Source: Shinella yambaruensis
GTDB taxonomy: Bacteria > Pseudomonadota > Alphaproteobacteria > Rhizobiales > Rhizobiaceae
Direction: 5' to 3'
Assembly (NCBI RefSeq): GCF_022899355.1
Contig: NZ_JALJCK010000003.1
Location: forward strand, 1 to 64,000
DNA: 64,000 nt
In this document: piece after piece, positions 3,245-57,193 of the stretch
How the letters are laid out: the number at the start of each line of letters is the position of its first letter
Position numbering within the stretch: the stretch's first letter is position 1
Program-made: the position numbers and the translations under genes
The notes under the pieces: model-generated
Seen by the model: the letters and a program-made list of their open reading frames with translations, nothing else
The model's database searches: none
Told to the model about the DNA's origin: nothing

Positions 3245-3571
3245 CTACTGCGGCAGCGACCCACCAGCGGCGAAATGCCCGCAGGCCGTGTCGGTGATCG
3301 TATCGACACCCCGGCGTAATTCATCCAGCCCCGCCAAGACGGATTTCTCGGCAAATTCGGTCTGGCAGACCAGCATATTCAAAGGATCGTCGCACTCCGC
3401 AAGGTTCTGCAGATGGGCACACTGGTCCCGAAGCAGGCGGGACGTCGCCCCGAGCCAGTGCCTGTACATCGCCATTGCGATCTCGAAAGGCGCCATAAGA
3501 AGTGGATCGGCAGCCATGGGGGAAAAGGTTACCGCAATTCGCTCCGCATCTGCCGCATTCTTCGCGGACAT
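3245..3571 (-). CDS. phasin-like small protein
   Basis: 108 residues, ATG 3571 with GGGAG about 7 nt upstream. The predicted all-helical sequence, with the pattern LLRDQCAHLQNLAECDDPLNML and then QTEFAEKSV, is what phasins (PHA granule surface proteins) look like, but similarity at this length is weak. Context supports it: a PHB synthase remnant starts divergently at 3738 and the FNR-type box at 3626-3639 lies between them, placing a predicted start site about 20 nt before this ATG. Role in granule binding is inferred. It appears intact. Confidence 0.6.
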   Translation of the reverse strand: MSAKNAADAERIAVTFSPMAADPLLMAPFEIAMAMYRHWLGATSRLLRDQCAHLQNLAECDDPLNMLVCQTEFAEKSVLAGLDELRRGVDTITDTACGHFAAGGSLPQ

Positions 3572-3625
3572 GACGAACTCCCGTTTCGATTAGATCGCAT
3601 TCTAGGCGGTTTCGCGCAATGAAAC

Positions 3626-3639
3626 TTGATCTACGTCAA
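3626..3639. promoter_or_regulatory. FNR/FixK-type box, divergent region
   Basis: TTGATctacGTCAA matches the anaerobox consensus in both halves. It lies between the phasin-like gene (minus) and the phaC remnant (plus), and fits a class II position for either (predicted leaders about 20 and 64 nt). Confidence 0.7.
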
Positions 3640-3737
3640 CGGAGATAAAGACTGCCCTGTGTAGGGTAATATTCGATCCGCTACCCGTTCATGAGGTTGT
3701 CTTCAGCGGAAACCCACTCCTGCCGAAGGAGACACCC

Positions 3738-4524
3738 ATGAATGCTCCGGCGAGCGAGATGTTGGCCTCCCGGCGGATGACGGATCTGCCGCCCGTCCCC
3801 CTGGGTGGAGGAACTGGGAAGCGAAGCCTTTCGCGCGATCGACCGCATGCGGGAAGCGATCGCCGGCCAGTTCAGCGCCGGCATGTCGCCTGCTGCCTTC
3901 GCACTTGCCCTGTTCGACTGGTCGGTCCACCTCGCCTCGGCCCCCGGGAAGCGGATGGAGCTCGTCGACAAGGCGAACCGCAAGGCGGTCCGCCTGCTCT
4001 GCCACCTTGCGGCCGTGGCGGCAGCACCGGATGTGCCGCCGTGCATCGAGCCCCTACCCGGCGACTACCGCTTCTCCGACGAACGCTGGAGGAAGCCGCC
4101 CTTCAGCATCTGGGCTCAGGCTTTCCTTCTCCAGCAGCAATGGTGGCACAACGCGGCAAAGGAAGTGCCGGGTGTCGCGCCGCACCACGAGGACGTGGTG
4201 CCCTTCGCCGCCCGCCAGATCCTCGACGTCTTTTCCCCCTCCAACATGCCTTTCGCCAATCCGGAGGTGATGGACAGGACGATCCGGACCGCCGGGATGA
4301 ACTTCCTCGACGGTTTCCGCAACTGGATGGAGGATGTGAGCCGCCTCGCGACCGGGCAGCAGTCGGTCGGCACCGAGAATTTCGTCGTCGGCAAGAACGT
4401 CGACGTGACCCCGGGCAAGGTGGTCTACCGCAACCACCTGATCGAGCTGATCCAGTATGCGCCCGCGACGGAGGGCTGCAGGCCCGTCGCCGATGCTCCC
4501 GGTACCTATGTTTTCCAGAGGTGA
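3738..4524 (+). pseudogene. phaC: poly-beta-hydroxybutyrate synthase (PhaC), internally deleted remnant
   Basis: ATG 3738 follows GAAGGAG. After a frameshift in the C-run near 3795-3801, the frame gives the PhaC N-terminal domain, including FDWSVHLASAPGKR, NFLDGFRNWMEDV and GKNVDVTPGKVVYRNHLIEL. Class I PhaC is about 590-600 residues with a catalytic alpha/beta hydrolase domain. Here, after IQYAPATEG, the reading jumps directly to CRPVADAPGTYVFQR, which looks like the family's normal C-terminus (APGxYV near the end). So roughly 1 kb holding the lipase-like box Cys, Asp and His has been removed in frame near 4475-4485. It cannot make polymer. The next gene starts 7 nt downstream, as in an operon. 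Confidence 0.8.
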
Positions 4525-21426: not shown

Positions 21427-21450
21427 TATAATATCCATTATTCTGGATAT
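21427..21450 (+). promoter_or_regulatory. arsR promoter -10 and ArsR operator
   Basis: TATAAT at 21427-21432 overlaps the left arm of an inverted repeat ATATCCA-N6-TGGATAT (21431-21437 / 21444-21450) that runs up to the arsR ATG at 21451. This is a good position for ArsR autorepression. No ribosome-binding site is visible, so the message may be nearly leaderless. Confidence 0.65.
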
Positions 21451-21804
21451 ATGGATGACAACACAGCGATAGCGGCGCTCGGCGCCTTGGCCCAGGCCAC
21501 GCGGCTGGAGACATTCCGTCTTCTCGTGCGGCACGAACCCAACGGCATTCCGGCTGGAGAGCTGGCCCGCCTCATCGACGTGCCGCAGAACACCATGTCG
21601 GCGCATCTTGCGACGCTGTCGCGGGCGGGCCTCGTCACGAGCGAGCGGCAGAGCCGGTCGATCATCTATCGCGCCGATCTTAATGGCCTGTGCGAGCTGA
21701 CCCTGTTCCTGCTCAAGGATTGCTGTGGCGGATCGACGGAGCTTTGTGCTCCGCTGATTGCCGAGTTGGCGCCTTGCTGTGTACCGGAGGCGACGCTGTC
21801 ATGA
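21451..21804 (+). CDS. arsR: ArsR/SmtB family arsenic-responsive repressor
   Basis: 117 residues, winged helix. IPAGELARLIDVPQNTMSAHLATLSRAGLVTSERQSRSIIYRADLNG is the HTH and wing. Cysteines lie at the C-terminal end (LKDCCGGSTELCAP and LAPCCVP), the arrangement of ArsRs whose As(III) site is C-terminal rather than in the recognition helix. The first gene of a tight plus-strand operon with arsN2, arsC, acr3 and a second arsC; its stop overlaps the arsN2 ATG. An operator palindrome directly precedes it. Confidence 0.92.
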   Translation: MDDNTAIAALGALAQATRLETFRLLVRHEPNGIPAGELARLIDVPQNTMSAHLATLSRAGLVTSERQSRSIIYRADLNGLCELTLFLLKDCCGGSTELCAPLIAELAPCCVPEATLS

Positions 21805-22238
21805 GCACGGTCCGGCTGGAGCAGGTTGCCGGCACCGACGCCAGCCTCAAGGCGGCCTTGGCGAACGCACATTTACCGACCGACGACATCGAGGATGACG
21901 GCCGGACCTTCTTCAAGGCCATAGTCGCAGATGGTCGGATCGTCGGCTTCTCCGGTGTCGAGCTATGCGGTGTCGATTATCTCCTCCGATCCGTCGTCGT
22001 GCTTTCCGAGCATCGAGGGCAAAGTCTGGGCCGTGCCGTCGTCGAACAGACATTGGCGCGTCTCGACCGCGGCGACGTCTTCCTCGCGACGACGAACGCA
22101 GCGCCGTTCTTCGCGCGCATCGGATTTTCCGAAGTGCCGCGGGACAGCGTGCCCGCATCGGTGCTGGCGACGCGCCAGCTTTCCTCCATCTGTCCATCAT
22201 CGGCGACCATCATGAAGCGCACCAGGCCGCCAACCTAA
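21801..22238 (+). CDS. arsN2: GNAT acetyltransferase, arsenic resistance type ArsN2
   Basis: 145 residues from ATG 21801, overlapping the arsR stop by 4 nt. The GNAT acetyl-CoA loop is LSEHRGQSLGRAVVEQTL, and the C-terminal pattern TTNAAPFFARIGFSEVPR followed by RQLSSICPSSATIM is characteristic of ArsN2-type proteins in ars operons. Relatives acetylate amino groups of arsenicals such as arsinothricin, but the substrate of ArsN2 is less certain. Position in the operon supports an arsenic role. Confidence 0.85.
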   Translation: MSTVRLEQVAGTDASLKAALANAHLPTDDIEDDGRTFFKAIVADGRIVGFSGVELCGVDYLLRSVVVLSEHRGQSLGRAVVEQTLARLDRGDVFLATTNAAPFFARIGFSEVPRDSVPASVLATRQLSSICPSSATIMKRTRPPT

Positions 22239-22253
22239 CCACGGACCACGACC

Positions 22254-22781
22254 ATGACCGACAAGACCTACACCGTGCTGTTCCTCTGCACGGGCAATTT
22301 CGCGCGCTCTATTCTCGCCGAATCCATCCTCAACAAGGAGGGCGGCGGACGGTTCAAAGCCTTTTCCGCCGGCAGCCAGCCGAAGGGCGAGGTCAATCCG
22401 CACGCGCTGAAGGAGCTGGAAGCGCTCGGCTATCCGTCGACGGGCTTCTCGTCGAAGAGCTGGGACGTGTTCGCAAAGCCCGGCGCCTCGCGAATGGATT
22501 TCATCTTCACCGTCTGCGACAGCGCCGCCGGTGAAGCCTGCCCGGTCTGGATCGGCCATCCGATGACCGCCCATTGGGGCGTCGAGGACCCGGCCGCCGT
22601 CGTCGGAACCGAGATGGAGATCCAGCGCACCTTCGCCCAGGCGGCCCGTTTCCTCAAGAACCGGATCGCGGCCTTCGTCAGCCTGCCGTTGGAATCCATC
22701 GACCGCATGGCGCGCGGGACGAAGCTTCGCCAGATCGGCGCGATGGAAGGTTCGACTTCACCGCAGCGAAAGTCCGCCTGA
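22254..22781 (+). CDS. arsC: arsenate reductase, LMW protein tyrosine phosphatase type
   Basis: 175 residues. The phosphate loop CTGNFARS is a CX5R motif near the N-terminus (VLFLCTGNFARSILAES); FTVCDSAAGEACPVW provides further cysteines expected for the intramolecular disulfide cascade, and GHPMTAHWGVEDPA the general-acid region. It reduces As(V) to As(III) for export, with thioredoxin or glutathione as likely electron source. Its stop overlaps the acr3 start (TGATG). Confidence 0.92.
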   Translation: MTDKTYTVLFLCTGNFARSILAESILNKEGGGRFKAFSAGSQPKGEVNPHALKELEALGYPSTGFSSKSWDVFAKPGASRMDFIFTVCDSAAGEACPVWIGHPMTAHWGVEDPAAVVGTEMEIQRTFAQAARFLKNRIAAFVSLPLESIDRMARGTKLRQIGAMEGSTSPQRKSA

Positions 22782-23839
22782 TGTCCACGTTCGAACGCTA
22801 CCTGACCATCTGGGTGTTCCTCTGCATCATCGTCGGCGTGGCGCTCGGCCATCTCATGCCCGGCCTCTTCCAGATCATCGGCGCGGTTGAGGTCGCCAAG
22901 GTGAACATTCCCGTCGCGATCCTGATCTGGCTGATGATCATCCCGATGCTGCTGAAGATCGATTTCCGGTCCCTCGCGCAGGTCGGCACCTTCTGGCGCG
23001 GCATCGGCGTGACCCTGATCATCAACTGGGCCGTCAAGCCGTTCTCGATGGCTCTCCTTGGCTGGCTCTTCATTGACTGGCTGTTCCGCCCCTACCTGCC
23101 TGCCGACCAGATCGATTCCTACATCGCCGGGCTCATCATCCTCGCCGCCGCCCCCTGCACGGCCATGGTCTTCGTCTGGAGCAATCTCACGCGCGGCGAA
23201 CCGCTGTTCACCCTCTCCCAGGTCGCGCTGAACGATGCGATCATGGTCGTCGCCTTCGCACCGATCGTCGGCCTGCTGCTGGGCCTTTCCGCCATCACCG
23301 TGCCGTGGGACACGCTTGCCCTGTCAGTCGCCCTCTACATCGTCGTACCGGTCGTCATCGCGCAGGTCATCCGCCACCGGCTCACGGTTGACGGAACGAC
23401 GCGGGTACTGGATGGCGTGCTTGCCAAGCTGCAACCGATCTCGCTGGTGGCGCTGCTCGCAACGCTGGTTCTTCTCTTCGCCTTTCAGGGCGAGCAGATC
23501 ATCGCCCAGCCGGCCGTCATCGGCTTGCTTGCCGTCCCGATCCTGATCCAGGTCTATCTCAACTCCGGACTTGCTTATCTACTCAACCGGGTCGCTGGCG
23601 AACGGCACTGCGTTGCCGGCCCGTCTGCGCTCATCGGCGCCAGCAACTTCTTCGAACTCGCGGTCGCAGCCGCCATCAGCCTCTTCGGCTTCCAGTCCGG
23701 TGCGGCGCTCGCCGCCGTCGTCGGCGTTCTCACCGAGGTCCCGGTGATGCTGTCGGTCGTGTGGATCGTGAACCGCTCGAAGGATTGGTATGAGGCCGCC
23801 CCCGCCGTTTCCCGAACCACCGTCACCGAACGGCACTGA
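22781..23839 (+). CDS. acr3: ACR3 family arsenite efflux transporter
   Basis: 352 residues, about ten membrane helices, from ATG 22781. Signature parts: FERYLTIWVFLCIIVGVALGH, WLMIIPMLLKIDF, AAPCTAMVFVWSNLTRG with the conserved Cys needed for arsenite transport, and GASNFFELAVAAAISLFG. It exports As(III) through the inner membrane, driven by proton motive force. It lies between the two arsenate reductase genes and overlaps the first by one base. Confidence 0.94.
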   Translation: MSTFERYLTIWVFLCIIVGVALGHLMPGLFQIIGAVEVAKVNIPVAILIWLMIIPMLLKIDFRSLAQVGTFWRGIGVTLIINWAVKPFSMALLGWLFIDWLFRPYLPADQIDSYIAGLIILAAAPCTAMVFVWSNLTRGEPLFTLSQVALNDAIMVVAFAPIVGLLLGLSAITVPWDTLALSVALYIVVPVVIAQVIRHRLTVDGTTRVLDGVLAKLQPISLVALLATLVLLFAFQGEQIIAQPAVIGLLAVPILIQVYLNSGLAYLLNRVAGERHCVAGPSALIGASNFFELAVAAAISLFGFQSGAALAAVVGVLTEVPVMLSVVWIVNRSKDWYEAAPAVSRTTVTERH

Positions 23840-23841
23840 CC

Positions 23842-24264
23842 ATGGACGCAACCATCTATCACAACCCCGCATGCGGAACGTCCCGCAACACGCTGGCGCT
23901 GATCCGCGCGGCCGGGATCGAGCCTGTTGTCATCGAATATGTGCAGGATCCACCGACGCGCGAGCAGCTTGCGACGATGATTTCGGATGCCGGGCTGACG
24001 GTCCGGGAAGCCATCCGCGAAAAAGGCACGCCCTATGCCGAACTCGGTCTCGACAACCCGGACCTGACCGACGGCCAGTTGCTCGACGCGATGATCGAAA
24101 CGCCGATCCTCATCAACCGTCCCTTCGTCGTGACACCGCTCGGCACCAGGCTCGCCCGCCCGTCCGAGGCGGTGCTCGACATCCTGCCCGATACCTTCAA
24201 GGGGCCGTTCTTCAAGGAGGACGGCGAACAGGTTCTCGACGAGGAGGGAAAGCGCATTGCCTGA
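23842..24264 (+). CDS. arsC: arsenate reductase, glutaredoxin-dependent (ArsC)
   Basis: 140 residues, 2 nt after the acr3 stop. IYHNPACGTSRNTLALIR contains the single catalytic Cys with its Gly-Thr-Ser-Arg context; arginines later in the chain (PFVVTPLGTRLARPSE) match the arsenate-binding Arg triad of E. coli ArsC. It uses glutathione and glutaredoxin. With the phosphatase-type enzyme upstream the operon holds two unrelated arsenate reductases. No clear terminator follows before the convergent MFS gene. Confidence 0.93.
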   Translation: MDATIYHNPACGTSRNTLALIRAAGIEPVVIEYVQDPPTREQLATMISDAGLTVREAIREKGTPYAELGLDNPDLTDGQLLDAMIETPILINRPFVVTPLGTRLARPSEAVLDILPDTFKGPFFKEDGEQVLDEEGKRIA

Positions 24265-24332
24265 CACGTTCCGCTCGACCAAGCGCGACGCATGAGCAGA
24301 CGACGAAGCTTGAGAAGCGCGTGCCGTTGCGC

Positions 24333-25577
24333 TCAGCCTGACGGGTTCGGCGTGGCGATGGGGCTCCGCTTCGCCGCCATCGCGACCGCGACGAAGGCGG
24401 CGATGCCGACAGAGCCGAGCACGGCGCTCAACGCGAGCGAGGCGCCGATACCAAACTGTCCCATCGTCGCCGCAAAGGCGAACGGGGCCGCAGCGCCCGC
24501 AGCCAGCCTGGCGGCTGCCATCTTTCCGGTCAGTGCGCCATAGCCATCCGAGCCGAACAGATAGAGCGGCAAGCTGCCCTGGGCGGTGCTGTTGATGCCG
24601 GATCCGAGGCCGAGGCAGATCGAGAAGGCGACCGCCCCGGGAAGCCAATTGCCGGACAACGCCAGGATGACGACGCTGAGGACCATCAAGCTCGCGGAGA
24701 CGACGGCAAGGCCCGGCGGCGCAAGGCGCGTGCCGAAAACCATGTTGACCAGGCGGCTGAGAACCTGCGCCGGGCCGAACAGCGAGCCGATGACGACCGC
24801 GGCGCTTCCGAAGCCGAGCGTTCCGAGCATCGGCACCATATGGGCGAGCATGGCGCCGAGGGTGAAGCTCAGCAGCGCGAATCCCGCCGACACGATAAGC
24901 ACCGCACCGCGCCGGCGCTCTGGCGGAACAGCCCCGACGACAGGCTCGCGCATCGGTCTCTGCCCGCCGGCCGCCGCAACCTTTCCCTTCCGCATGATCC
25001 AGACGTGGAACGGCATGCAGACGGCGATGTTGAGCCCGGCATAGACGAGGTAGATCTCGCGCCAGGAGAGATGGCCGAGCAGCACCGTGGTGATCGGCCA
25101 GAAGATCGTGGAGGCGAAGCCGGCGATCAGCGTGAGATAGGTGATGCTTCGCGATGCGGACCGGGGATCGGCTTCCACCAGCGCCGCGAAAGCGGCCTGG
25201 TACTGGACCATGCCGGACGCTATTTCCAGAAGGACGATGGCGAGGGCAAAAATCGCCACGGACGGCGACCAGGCGCACAGCATCAGGGTTAAGGCAGACA
25301 GCAACGAGCCGATCGCCATCACCGTCGCCGCACCGACGCGGTCCATCTGCCGGCCGACATAGGGCGCCGACAAACCGCCGACGAAGAGCGACGCGGAAAA
25401 CACGGCAAAGACCTGCGCGACGGTGACGCCGAGATCGGCCGCCATGCCGGGCGCCAGGATGCTGAAGCTGTAATAGAGGGTGCCGTAGCCGATGATCTGG
25501 GTCAGGCCGAGCGCGGCGACGATGCCGACGGGTGCTTTCGGGTCACGCAACGACGTCGATCTCGCCGCAGGCAGCAT
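24333..25577 (-). CDS. MFS transporter of the arsenic cluster (ArsK-like)
   Basis: 414 residues with about twelve hydrophobic segments: GLTQIIGYGTLYYSFSILAPGMA, then a motif-A-like YVGRQMDRVGAATVM. ATG 25577 overlaps the end of the upstream arsR by 35 nt; a TTG nearer the stop is an alternative. Coupling to an ArsR gene and convergence with the ars operon point to metalloid export. Rhizobial/Agrobacterium ArsK is an MFS exporter of As(III), Sb(III) and organoarsenicals and is the best candidate; ArsJ is less likely since no GAPDH-type partner is present. Confidence 0.8.
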   Translation of the reverse strand: MLPAARSTSLRDPKAPVGIVAALGLTQIIGYGTLYYSFSILAPGMAADLGVTVAQVFAVFSASLFVGGLSAPYVGRQMDRVGAATVMAIGSLLSALTLMLCAWSPSVAIFALAIVLLEIASGMVQYQAAFAALVEADPRSASRSITYLTLIAGFASTIFWPITTVLLGHLSWREIYLVYAGLNIAVCMPFHVWIMRKGKVAAAGGQRPMREPVVGAVPPERRRGAVLIVSAGFALLSFTLGAMLAHMVPMLGTLGFGSAAVVIGSLFGPAQVLSRLVNMVFGTRLAPPGLAVVSASLMVLSVVILALSGNWLPGAVAFSICLGLGSGINSTAQGSLPLYLFGSDGYGALTGKMAAARLAAGAAAPFAFAATMGQFGIGASLALSAVLGSVGIAAFVAVAMAAKRSPIATPNPSG

Positions 25578-25911
25578 CCGTCCCGCAGCAGCCGTCGGAT
25601 CGCTCGACGCTCTCGCGGATGGTGGGATGCCCGGCACAGCAATCTTCCATCAGGAATTTCACGAGATCGGCAAGAGCATCGTAGCTGGCGCTGTAGACGA
25701 TCGAGCGGGATTCCCGCCGCATCGCGATCAGGCCCGATCGCTCCAACTCCTTCAGGTGGAAGGAGACGTTCGACGGCGAGACGCCCATGCGCTCGGCGAT
25801 CAGCCCGGCGGCCAGCCCGTCCGGTCCAGCGACGACCAGCGTGCGCACGATAGCAAGGCGAGTCTCCTGCGATAGGGCTGCAAATGATGCGAGGGCTTGA
25901 CGCTCGTCCAT
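25543..25911 (-). CDS. arsR: ArsR family repressor, second copy
   Basis: 122 residues from ATG 25911. HTH: IAERMGVSPSNVSFHLKELERSGLIAMRRESRSIVYSA. The C-terminal part is Cys-rich (MEDCCAGHP, SDGCCGTDAACGE), so the metalloid site is probably C-terminal. It is followed by the MFS gene with overlapping frames and is divergent from the DUF6428 gene; the palindrome at 25914-25937 lies right before its ATG. It is clearly different from the arsR at 21451 in sequence. Confidence 0.92.
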   Translation of the reverse strand: MDERQALASFAALSQETRLAIVRTLVVAGPDGLAAGLIAERMGVSPSNVSFHLKELERSGLIAMRRESRSIVYSASYDALADLVKFLMEDCCAGHPTIRESVERSDGCCGTDAACGEIDVVA

Positions 25912-25913
25912 AT

Positions 25914-25937
25914 TTCAATAATCCTTTAATCATTGAA
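25914..25937. promoter_or_regulatory. ArsR operator between divergent genes
   Basis: TTCAAT (25914-25919) and ATTGAA (25932-25937) are perfect 6-bp arms with a partly symmetric AT-rich centre. This is like known ArsR sites (TTCAA...TTGAA), located in the 43 bp between arsR (minus) and the DUF6428 gene (plus), so one site could control both. Confidence 0.7.
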
Positions 25938-25954
25938 AAACAGGAGTAGCGCAC

Positions 25955-26473
25955 ATGACCGCGATCGACAAGACCGTTTCATCCGACATCACGCTGGGCC
26001 AGCTTCTCGATGGGCTGGCGGCGGCGCCGAAGGCCCCGCTGGTGTTCGTCTATGACGGACGTCCGGTGAAGGCTGGCTATCATGTCACCGAGGTCAAGGC
26101 GGGCGCGTTCTCGGCACTCGACTGCGGGGCCAACCCGGAAACCTGGTCGGAGATGTTCGTCCAGCTCTGGGATATCGACGAGGGCGGCAGGGGTCACATG
26201 CCGGCGGGGAAGTTCTCCGCGATCATCCGCAAGGTTTCCGATCACGTCCGGCTCGATCCTGCGGCCAAGCTCACCTTCGAGGTCAGCGACGGAAGCCGGG
26301 CGATGGCCCTCTACTATGCGTCGTCGCCGCGCTTGGCCGAAGGCAGAATCGAGGTGATACTGGCCGCAAGGCCGGCAAGCTGCAAACCCCGTGATCGCTG
26401 GCTGACAGAGAAGAGCGCAGCCGCAAATTCCTGCTGTGGTCCGGCAATGATTAGCTCGAAGTGTTGCGCCTGA
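25955..26473 (+). CDS. DUF6428 family protein with Cys-rich tail
   Basis: 172 residues from ATG 25955 with AGGAG upstream. No known catalytic motif. Residues ~15-150 form a mixed alpha/beta domain (LGQLLDGLAAAPKAPLVFVYDG, VKAGYHVTEVKAGAFSALDCG). The last 17 residues are NSCCGPAMISSKCCA-like, carrying two CC pairs, as in the tails of the neighbouring ArsR proteins. Divergent from arsR and sharing its operator, it is presumably As-induced. A metalloid sequestration or delivery role is inferred, not shown. Confidence 0.75.
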   Translation: MTAIDKTVSSDITLGQLLDGLAAAPKAPLVFVYDGRPVKAGYHVTEVKAGAFSALDCGANPETWSEMFVQLWDIDEGGRGHMPAGKFSAIIRKVSDHVRLDPAAKLTFEVSDGSRAMALYYASSPRLAEGRIEVILAARPASCKPRDRWLTEKSAAANSCCGPAMISSKCCA

Positions 26474-57022: not shown

Positions 57023-57076
57023 CGGATTTCCGTCCGTCTCTTTCGTATTTCGGGTGATTATCGAATTTCTGGGCAT

Positions 57077-57156
57077 AAAAAAAGGCCCCTTGGAGGAGCC
57101 TGTTTACCGCGCATGGGTGCTTTCGCCGGGTGGTTACACCACCCTGCCCATGCGCG
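57077..57156 (-). promoter_or_regulatory. ilvIH attenuator: leader hairpins and terminator
   Basis: Read on the minus strand: GCGCATGGG pairs with CCCATGCGC (57110-57156 overall) enclosing GGGTGGT/ACCACCC, overlapping the end of the leader peptide. Then AGGCTCC-TCCAA-GGGGCCT (about 57084-57102) followed by seven T (57077-57083) is a Rho-independent terminator 55 nt before ilvI. This is the layout of translation-coupled attenuation. Confidence 0.85.
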
Positions 57157-57193
57157 TTCCCACCACAAGAATGATAGAGGTCAGATTTTTCAT
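57134..57193 (-). CDS. ilvIH leader peptide, rich in branched-chain codons
   Basis: ATG 57193 to TAA 57134-57136 encodes MKNLTSIILVVGTRMGRVV (19 residues), with nine Ile, Leu or Val. The control run IILVV and the final VV are placed so that a ribosome stalled for lack of these amino acids would disturb the first hairpin and prevent the terminator at 57077-57102. Classic leader peptide of branched-chain operons. Confidence 0.85.
   Translation of the reverse strand: MKNLTSIILVVGTRMGRVV

Follow-up and report, generated by a model that had tools for sequence, protein, structure and literature searches.

The DUF6428 protein encoded in the window (the whole 64-kb stretch of DNA that was analysed) may well represent a new type of protein that handles arsenic. 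The reading that we favor, with a probability of roughly 0.45, is that it is an ArsR-controlled thiol protein that would buffer trivalent arsenic (or antimony), or act as its acceptor, by binding it. An arsenic-induced thiol protein is the simplest account, because a repressor that senses arsenic, an operator in common with it, and conserved thiols are found together. A small soluble thiol protein would be made on demand under ArsR: entry of trivalent arsenic (or antimony) would take ArsR off a shared TTCAA-N6-TTGAA operator, this release would permit transcription of arsR(-arsK) and of the divergent DUF6428 gene, and the protein would bind the metalloid through C57, C143, and the CC of its flexible tail, leaving a smaller free toxic pool. 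Where a pump is absent it would act alone; where Acr3 or ArsK is present, it would act before that pump. Computation shows the gene pairing, the conservation of the operator and of the cysteines, and, in one family, that the gene does not track Acr3; metalloid binding, As(III) induction, repression by ArsR, and a buffering role are inferred.

The DUF6428 gene was taken from the ORF list and a profile match, and the positions of its cysteines from codon positions and the conservation alignment.
25955–26473, + strand: DUF6428 gene, 172 aa
26123–26125, + strand: C57 of DUF6428
26381–26383, + strand: C143 of DUF6428
26432–26437, + strand: C160-C161 of DUF6428
26462–26467, + strand: C170-C171 of DUF6428
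The first-pass annotation had described an uncharacterised 172-residue protein with an SCCGP and KCCA tail, and this description holds for the ORF. The annotation had set the extent at 25914–26473, a start that takes in the promoter; the ORF itself begins at 25955, with AGGAG 8 bases ahead of the start codon. The protein is a member of Pfam PF20001 (DUF6428), with a near full-length match (79.9 bits, E 2.3e-22, residues 16–171 of 172) exceeding the curated cut-off of 28.7 bits, and no NCBIfam model matched it at E ≤ 0.001. The curated description of PF20001 assigns no function to the family; among the papers searched, none contains the name DUF6428, and PF20001 turns up only in two unrelated ones.

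The C-terminal tail reads NSCCGPAMISSKCCA (SCCGP...KCCA), and its richness in CC exceeds what chance would give: of the 1277 non-overlapping ORFs of at least 100 aa in the 80 genome-contig loci, 108 had at least two CC pairs within the last 45 residues, and motif sorting divided these into 60 DUF6428, 46 ArsR, and 2 'other', one of which looks like an ArsR tail. The tail had been likened to those of the flanking ArsR proteins; both carry Cys-Cys pairs, the likeness ends there, and the tail of ArsD is closer. The protein contains only 6 cysteines in 172 aa (4–9 across 58 representatives), which rules out a metallothionein-like protein.

The other features of the ars cluster are as follows.
25912–25954, no strand: divergent promoter region, 43 bp, common to arsR/arsK and DUF6428 (compared across 112 divergent pairs)
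25914–25937, no strand: presumed ArsR operator (from conservation)
25543–25911, − strand: arsR, 122 aa, C-terminal cysteines DCC...CC (ORF list, profile match)
24333–25637, − strand: arsK, arsenite efflux MFS transporter (NF033733, 567 bits against a cut-off of 400)
23842–24264, + strand: arsC, glutaredoxin type (TIGR00014, 142 bits against 106)
22775–23839, + strand: acr3 arsenite efflux pump (TIGR00832, 365 bits against 282.8)
22254–22781, + strand: probable arsenate reductase of the low-molecular-weight phosphatase (LMWP) type (over the Pfam cut-off, below the NCBIfam arsC cut-offs)
21798–22238, + strand: arsN2 acetyltransferase (NF040501, 134 bits against 125)
21451–21804, + strand: second arsR (profile match)
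21431–21450, no strand: presumed operator of the second arsR, ATATCC-N8-GGATAT (palindrome touching the start codon)
On the − strand, arsK follows the arsR that adjoins DUF6428; since its profile match starts at residue 37, its true start is probably near 25529. The genes arsR, arsN2, LMWP-type arsC, acr3, and glutaredoxin-type arsC form a separate upstream unit (21451–24264, + strand). Because the second arsR carries its own presumed operator, which differs from the one beside DUF6428, the cluster seems to consist of two separately regulated halves, or two ArsR circuits. The window lacks arsH, leaving only 68 bp (24265–24332) between arsC and arsK, where close relatives with full flanks have arsH. 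Elsewhere in the window, the Rhizobiales sRNA Atu_C8 is found at 57067–57188 (RF02502, 113.9 bits).

The divergence of DUF6428 from arsR across 43 bp had been stated correctly (arsR 25543–25911, − strand; region 25912–25954). The single palindrome proposed for this region was right in part: TTCAAT-N12-ATTGAA is present and spans 25914–25937, but what the relatives keep is the element TTCAA-N6-TTGAA with a third half-site after it. The window copy, TTCAA-N6-TTTAA (25914–25929) followed by the third half-site ATTGAA (25932–25937), is one mismatch off this consensus. Such a match is weak when the 64-kb window is taken alone (2 one-mismatch matches against 0.52 expected; at least 2 in 11 of 100 shuffles), and it is the conservation of the element across relatives that makes the window operator convincing. 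In 98 unique divergent intergenic regions of positive length, the best match to TTCAA-N6-TTGAA was exact in 78 and had one, two, and three mismatches in 14, 4, and 2 regions, respectively. The shared ArsR operator that the first-pass annotation had proposed is thus conserved, within one mismatch in 92/98 regions as against 0.9% of dinucleotide shuffles (0.1% exact, 0.8% with one mismatch). When spacings of 2 to 13 were scanned, exact matches occurred at spacing 6 only; at spacing 3, 58 of the 98 regions came within one mismatch, a signal that we attribute to the third half-site, which adjoins the second. Ten of the 14 promoters listed for lone ArsR-DUF6428 pairs (see below) have two exact copies ~40 bp apart, one near each start; two have one exact copy and two have none. 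An operator shared with arsR is a criterion for an ArsR-controlled ars gene, and DUF6428 has such an operator as a predicted site. On the sequence evidence, arsR and DUF6428 probably stand under a common ArsR operator, at which ArsR would act as the repressor.

The link between DUF6428 and ArsR is nearly absolute. Relatives were collected from several sources. The best 80 of the 189 relatives found in genome contigs supplied 80 loci, so that close relatives are over-represented. DUF6428 was present in 12/398 genomes of a phylum sample and 3/385 of a class sample, the window's own genome included in both. A plasmid search gave 104 of 72,556 records at E ≤ 0.01, many of which label the relatives 'DUF6428 family protein'; 12 and then six more were examined, and these 18 regions were picked mostly as distant or oddly annotated matches. 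The co-occurrence table comprises 105 rows from 104 loci: the frame-broken L095 is in twice, two contigs, to judge by their length, entered twice via two collections (L006/L075 and L010/L088), and L002–L013 and L094 have flanks of ~1.5 kb only. ArsR is in the locus in 104 of the 105 rows; in the exception, L031, the full arsR is absent and its first 19 codons remain. The other neighbors, counted as lower bounds owing to some short flanks, are ArsK-like transporters (79 rows), glutaredoxin ArsC (75), LMWP ArsC (68), ArsH (54), ArsN2 (47), Acr3 (41), and aquaporin (29). In the loci examined, the association of DUF6428 with arsR is closer than its association with any pump.

A scan for the nearest ArsR covered 119 places by adding the family sample described below and the window. 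ArsR was adjacent and divergent in 112 (the L031 remnant included) and directly upstream on the same strand in six; the remaining place, L099, has no adjacent ArsR, which there follows the MFS gene. The association with ars genes elsewhere, for which a neighborhood survey had been proposed, is thus very strong. Of the six further plasmid regions, five have ArsR directly upstream of DUF6428, and the sixth (L143) has a fused ArsN2-DUF6428 after a MarR-type gene, with ArsR ~1.7 kb upstream.

DUF6428 occurs in Pseudomonadota, Deinococcota, and Bacteroidota, among which the ArsR types differ. [DE]CC and one more cysteine, presumably the AfArsR-type As(III) site, are kept in each of the 111 divergent ArsR partners that could be read, and the Bacteroidota and Deinococcus partners show other cysteine patterns; the link is therefore to arsenic-sensing repressors in general and not to one ArsR type. 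Pairwise distances of ArsR and DUF6428 correlated with r = 0.87 (46 pairs; 0 of 2000 permutations as high). This value probably reflects group structure, and co-evolution of the two proteins was rejected, since inside the lone-pair family the correlation was not significant (r = 0.12, 16 pairs; 394 of 2000 permutations as high).

Several loci are unusual in other ways. ArsR-ArsN2 fusions, in which ArsR runs into an ArsN2-like domain, stand beside DUF6428 in L048, L053, and L006/L075. In Thermus and Deinococcus, small ORFs that separate arsR from DUF6428 (L100, 5759–5968; L098, 5775–5927; L148, 4726–4884) end in cysteine motifs, e.g., CxxC or CC. On the small Empedobacter falsenii plasmid p1681-tetX (L146), an ArsR-DUF6428-phosphatase-Acr3 operon adjoins tet(X), and on a Rhizobium oryzihabitans plasmid (L095, 4330–4843) DUF6428 and some ars neighbors are apparently broken by frame changes. 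A search of 2.9 million viral contigs gave no confirmed relative and PHROG gave no match, and a viral origin or spread was rejected on these results. A record named 'Bacteriophage sp.' (MT836168.1), an unannotated 12.7-kb faecal contig with a 75% identical DUF6428 at 3554–4066, is probably a mis-binned bacterial fragment.

The pair of ArsR and DUF6428 can also stand alone. In the alphaproteobacterial G099 family, DUF6428 matched in 16/345 genomes (15 over the cut-off), and a divergent ArsR was directly beside it in all 16. Fifteen of these are lone pairs outside any ars operon, and G858 is the only genome with the gene in one. A pair was called 'lone' when tblastn (E ≤ 1e-4) gave no match to an ars panel without ArsM, ArsI, and ArsP within ~9 kb on each side, or to the contig end in the short contigs L129 (11.1 kb) and L132 (6.2 kb). 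Allowed exceptions were ArsR-like matches, of which L134 and L135 have weak second ones, and, in G1036 (L126), a GAPDH-like gene without ArsJ at a distance of 3 kb. A further lone pair is present in G183 of the phylum sample, and in Thermus oshimai no further annotated ars gene lies within 6 kb of ArsR, a small Cys-tailed ORF, and DUF6428. ORF clustering of the 16 loci, based on a greedy longest-ORF caller by which some genes are missed, revealed no third partner: only DUF6428 (11 loci), ArsR (9), and an ABC-type ATPase (5) recurred in at least three loci.

Pumps were also searched in the genomes as a whole. Acr3 over the cut-off was found in 6/16 DUF6428 genomes compared with 144/345 in the whole G099-family sample, so the presence of DUF6428 does not track Acr3. 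ArsB over the cut-off was found in 0/28 DUF6428 genomes searched (weak matches in 5), ArsA (TIGR00345) in 0/28 (weak sub-cut-off matches in all 28), and ArsK in 0/17 (ArsK-like matches of 139–289 bits in 7). By the models used, with exporters such as ArsP outside the search, 7/16 DUF6428 genomes of the family (G099, G798, G976, G1023, G1032, G1041, and G1068) have neither Acr3 or ArsB over the cut-off nor an ArsK-like match above 100 bits; weak matches are Acr3 in G1068 (E 2e-16) and ArsB (21 bits) and ArsK-like (68 bits) in G976. The lone pairs suggest that the core job of DUF6428 needs no pump, and they favor binding or conversion over delivery. Delivery to an exporter, as the first-pass annotation had suggested, may occur; as a general role it is weakened by these counts and is unlikely. 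That ArsR and DUF6428 form a free-standing, pump-independent two-gene divergent device in at least three phyla, the partner binding or converting intracellular trivalent arsenic, is a tentative and somewhat doubtful extension. If true, the device would represent a dedicated ars-linked family of sequestration or conversion proteins in at least three phyla.

Conservation was examined in an alignment of 58 representatives less than 80% identical (46 alphaproteobacterial, 8 Deinococcota, and 4 Bacteroidota). Fused proteins were cut to the DUF6428 part, N-termini were trimmed in 15 lone-family proteins, and L001, L008 (the window's own), L019 (shifted tail), L021 (early stop), L031, and L095 were left out. 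H43, T45, E46, C57, I90, L136, and C143 are invariant (58/58), C161, G58, and Q70 are each present in 57/58, and D56 and E109 are nearly invariant. C160 is present in 53, C170 in 45, and C171 in 43 of the 58, and the second tail CC pair is not general across the representatives. Of the 118 proteins that exceed 120 aa, every one has a CC within its final 45 residues, and 95 have two or more there. Single tail cysteines are lost in some close relatives (e.g., L007, L010, L014, and L020). The core cysteine pair C57 and C143, together with one or more cysteines of the tail, is kept in three phyla and would fit the ligand set of trivalent arsenic. In the AF2 model (63 sequences; mean pLDDT 81, pTM 0.72), which is predicted to be beta-rich, C57 of the hairpin motif DCGG lies in the turn between strands 43–55 and 61–72, C143 of the motif C-K-P/A follows strand 131–138, and tail residues 161–169 have pLDDT below 50.

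The same alignment raises the possibility that the protein is an enzyme acting on arsenicals, with C57 and the H43-x-T45-E46 strand as the active site and the tail cysteines holding or shuttling the substrate; thiol exchange, or work on organoarsenicals together with ArsN2, would be examples. A simple thiol buffer would not need H43, T45, E46, D56, G58, Q70, and E109, and a catalytic or protein-contact role of these residues is therefore possible. Besides the invariance of H43, T45, E46, and C57 and the near-invariance of Q70 and E109, DUF6428 is fused to ArsN2 on plasmids of Deinococcus ficus and D. aetherius, and an enzyme could detoxify in lone pairs where no pump is at hand. However, these two fusions are both from one genus, ArsN2 accompanies DUF6428 in only 47/105 rows (some with short flanks), and no significant similarity to an enzyme family was found in Pfam, NCBIfam, PDB sequences, or PDB folds. 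The best PDB sequence match (E 0.29) was a short stretch of an rRNA methyltransferase, and one Deinococcus relative gave a weak Archease match (E 0.004, below the cut-off). Among the PDB folds, the AF2 model had no match at E ≤ 0.001 (best VIA Z 2.1), a result that a better model could change because the input consisted of close relatives only (Rhizobiales type); the top Foldseek probability among the 50 rows listed was 0.28, with several OsmC/Ohr chains included. No known fold is supported by the PDB sequence, Foldseek, or VIA comparison. We regard an enzymatic role as rather unlikely.

An ArsD-like metallochaperone, which would collect As(III) for transfer to an exporter (chiefly ArsK or Acr3), is unlikely in our view. 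It would account for the ArsK-like gene in at least 79 and Acr3 in at least 41 of the 105 rows, and for the resemblance of the tail to the CC...CC tail of ArsD. On plasmids of D. deserti, D. taeanensis, and Deinococcus QL22, moreover, the last base of DUF6428 is the first base of an ArsK-like MFS gene (90–102 bits, under the ArsK cut-off). DUF6428 is often found inside pump operons in Deinococcus and Bacteroidota, and a pump-linked role fits equally well there. The lone pairs in 15/16 genomes of the G099 family, the absence of enrichment with Acr3, and the finding of ArsA over the cut-off in 0/28 genomes nevertheless argue against this role. The Cys12-Cys13-Cys18 site of ArsD is also without counterpart, and the ArsD tail pairs are given as regulatory in the part of PMC4562236 consulted.

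A third role would be that of a co-regulator modulating ArsR: it could, for example, compete for As(III) and so terminate induction, or be a weak additional repressor, which R773 ArsD reportedly is. ArsR as the only constant partner, the paired operator copies in 10/14 lone-pair promoters listed, and the regulation proposed for the R773 ArsD tail pairs (PMC4562236, in part) would agree with it, but we consider it very improbable, because three phyla with different ArsR types and cysteine sites argue against a specific ArsR contact, the ArsR and DUF6428 distances are uncorrelated in the lone-pair family (r = 0.12, 16 pairs), and two regulators standing alone, with nothing beside them to control, would have to act on other parts of the genome.

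We take Brucella tritici (L039) to be the present name of Ochrobactrum tritici. In the L039 record, DUF6428 is the gene beyond the matching arsR, so that the earlier cloning of the O. tritici ars2 cluster seems to have stopped one gene short of it. PMC2440759 describes that cluster as having six genes, the last of them arsR3, and two arsR genes in opposite orientation. In RNA-seq of A. tumefaciens 5A, As(III) at 100 µM induces arsR4 135-fold and arsR2 7-fold (PMC7965956). Judging from how the genes are ordered in relatives such as L086, the neighbor of arsR2 (AT5A_25685), of arsR4 (AT5A_22251), or of both would be DUF6428.

Pumps, reductases, and modifying enzymes dominate most descriptions of how bacteria defend themselves against arsenic. 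The abstract of a 2025 study states that the ars operon had so far yielded no specific intracellular sequestration gene (PMC12093948). DUF6428, present in three phyla and sometimes the sole gene beside arsR, is a strong candidate for such an ars-linked gene, and lone-pair strains make testing simple because there is no surrounding ars operon to mask a phenotype.

Among known systems, ArsD (PF06953) is likewise a small ars-linked protein ending in CC...CC; its C-terminal vicinal cysteine pairs are matched by C160-C161 and C170-C171 of the window protein, and the ArsD tails of L140/L141 are alike. In hhalign comparison with two ArsD sequences, only a 19-column stretch of the tail aligned (42%, probability 19.5%), and the cores showed no similarity. 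The ArsD profile did not match the window protein, PF20001 being the sole match at an E limit of 10 with filters dropping most matches above 0.1. ArsD has a thioredoxin-like fold. The DUF6428 model (pLDDT 81) is predicted to be beta-rich, with no PDB match at E ≤ 0.001 and a best VIA Z of 2.1. The ArsA partner expected for ArsD is over the cut-off in none of the 28 DUF6428 genomes. The N-terminal As(III) site of ArsD is Cys12-Cys13-Cys18, and its tail pairs, as proposed for R773, are regulatory rather than chaperone residues (both from the consulted part of PMC4562236); in contrast, the first cysteine of DUF6428 is C57.

ArsW is listed in PMC9144182 as an efflux transporter and is on that ground ruled out as the identity of the DUF6428 protein. 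ArsK (NF033733) is a frequent neighbor of DUF6428 that shares the same divergent promoter, as in the window, but it is a membrane transporter, and DUF6428 is also present where ArsK is not found over the cut-off. A parallel in function, as a working idea, may be QueF/QueE of Lysinibacillus OR-15, which the consulted part of PMC12093948 presents as ArsR-controlled arsenic-binding proteins with conserved cysteines. DUF6428 would resemble them in ArsR-controlled intracellular arsenic binding through conserved cysteines; QueF/QueE are described there as lying outside the ars operon, whereas the arsR-linked DUF6428 forms a family of its own.
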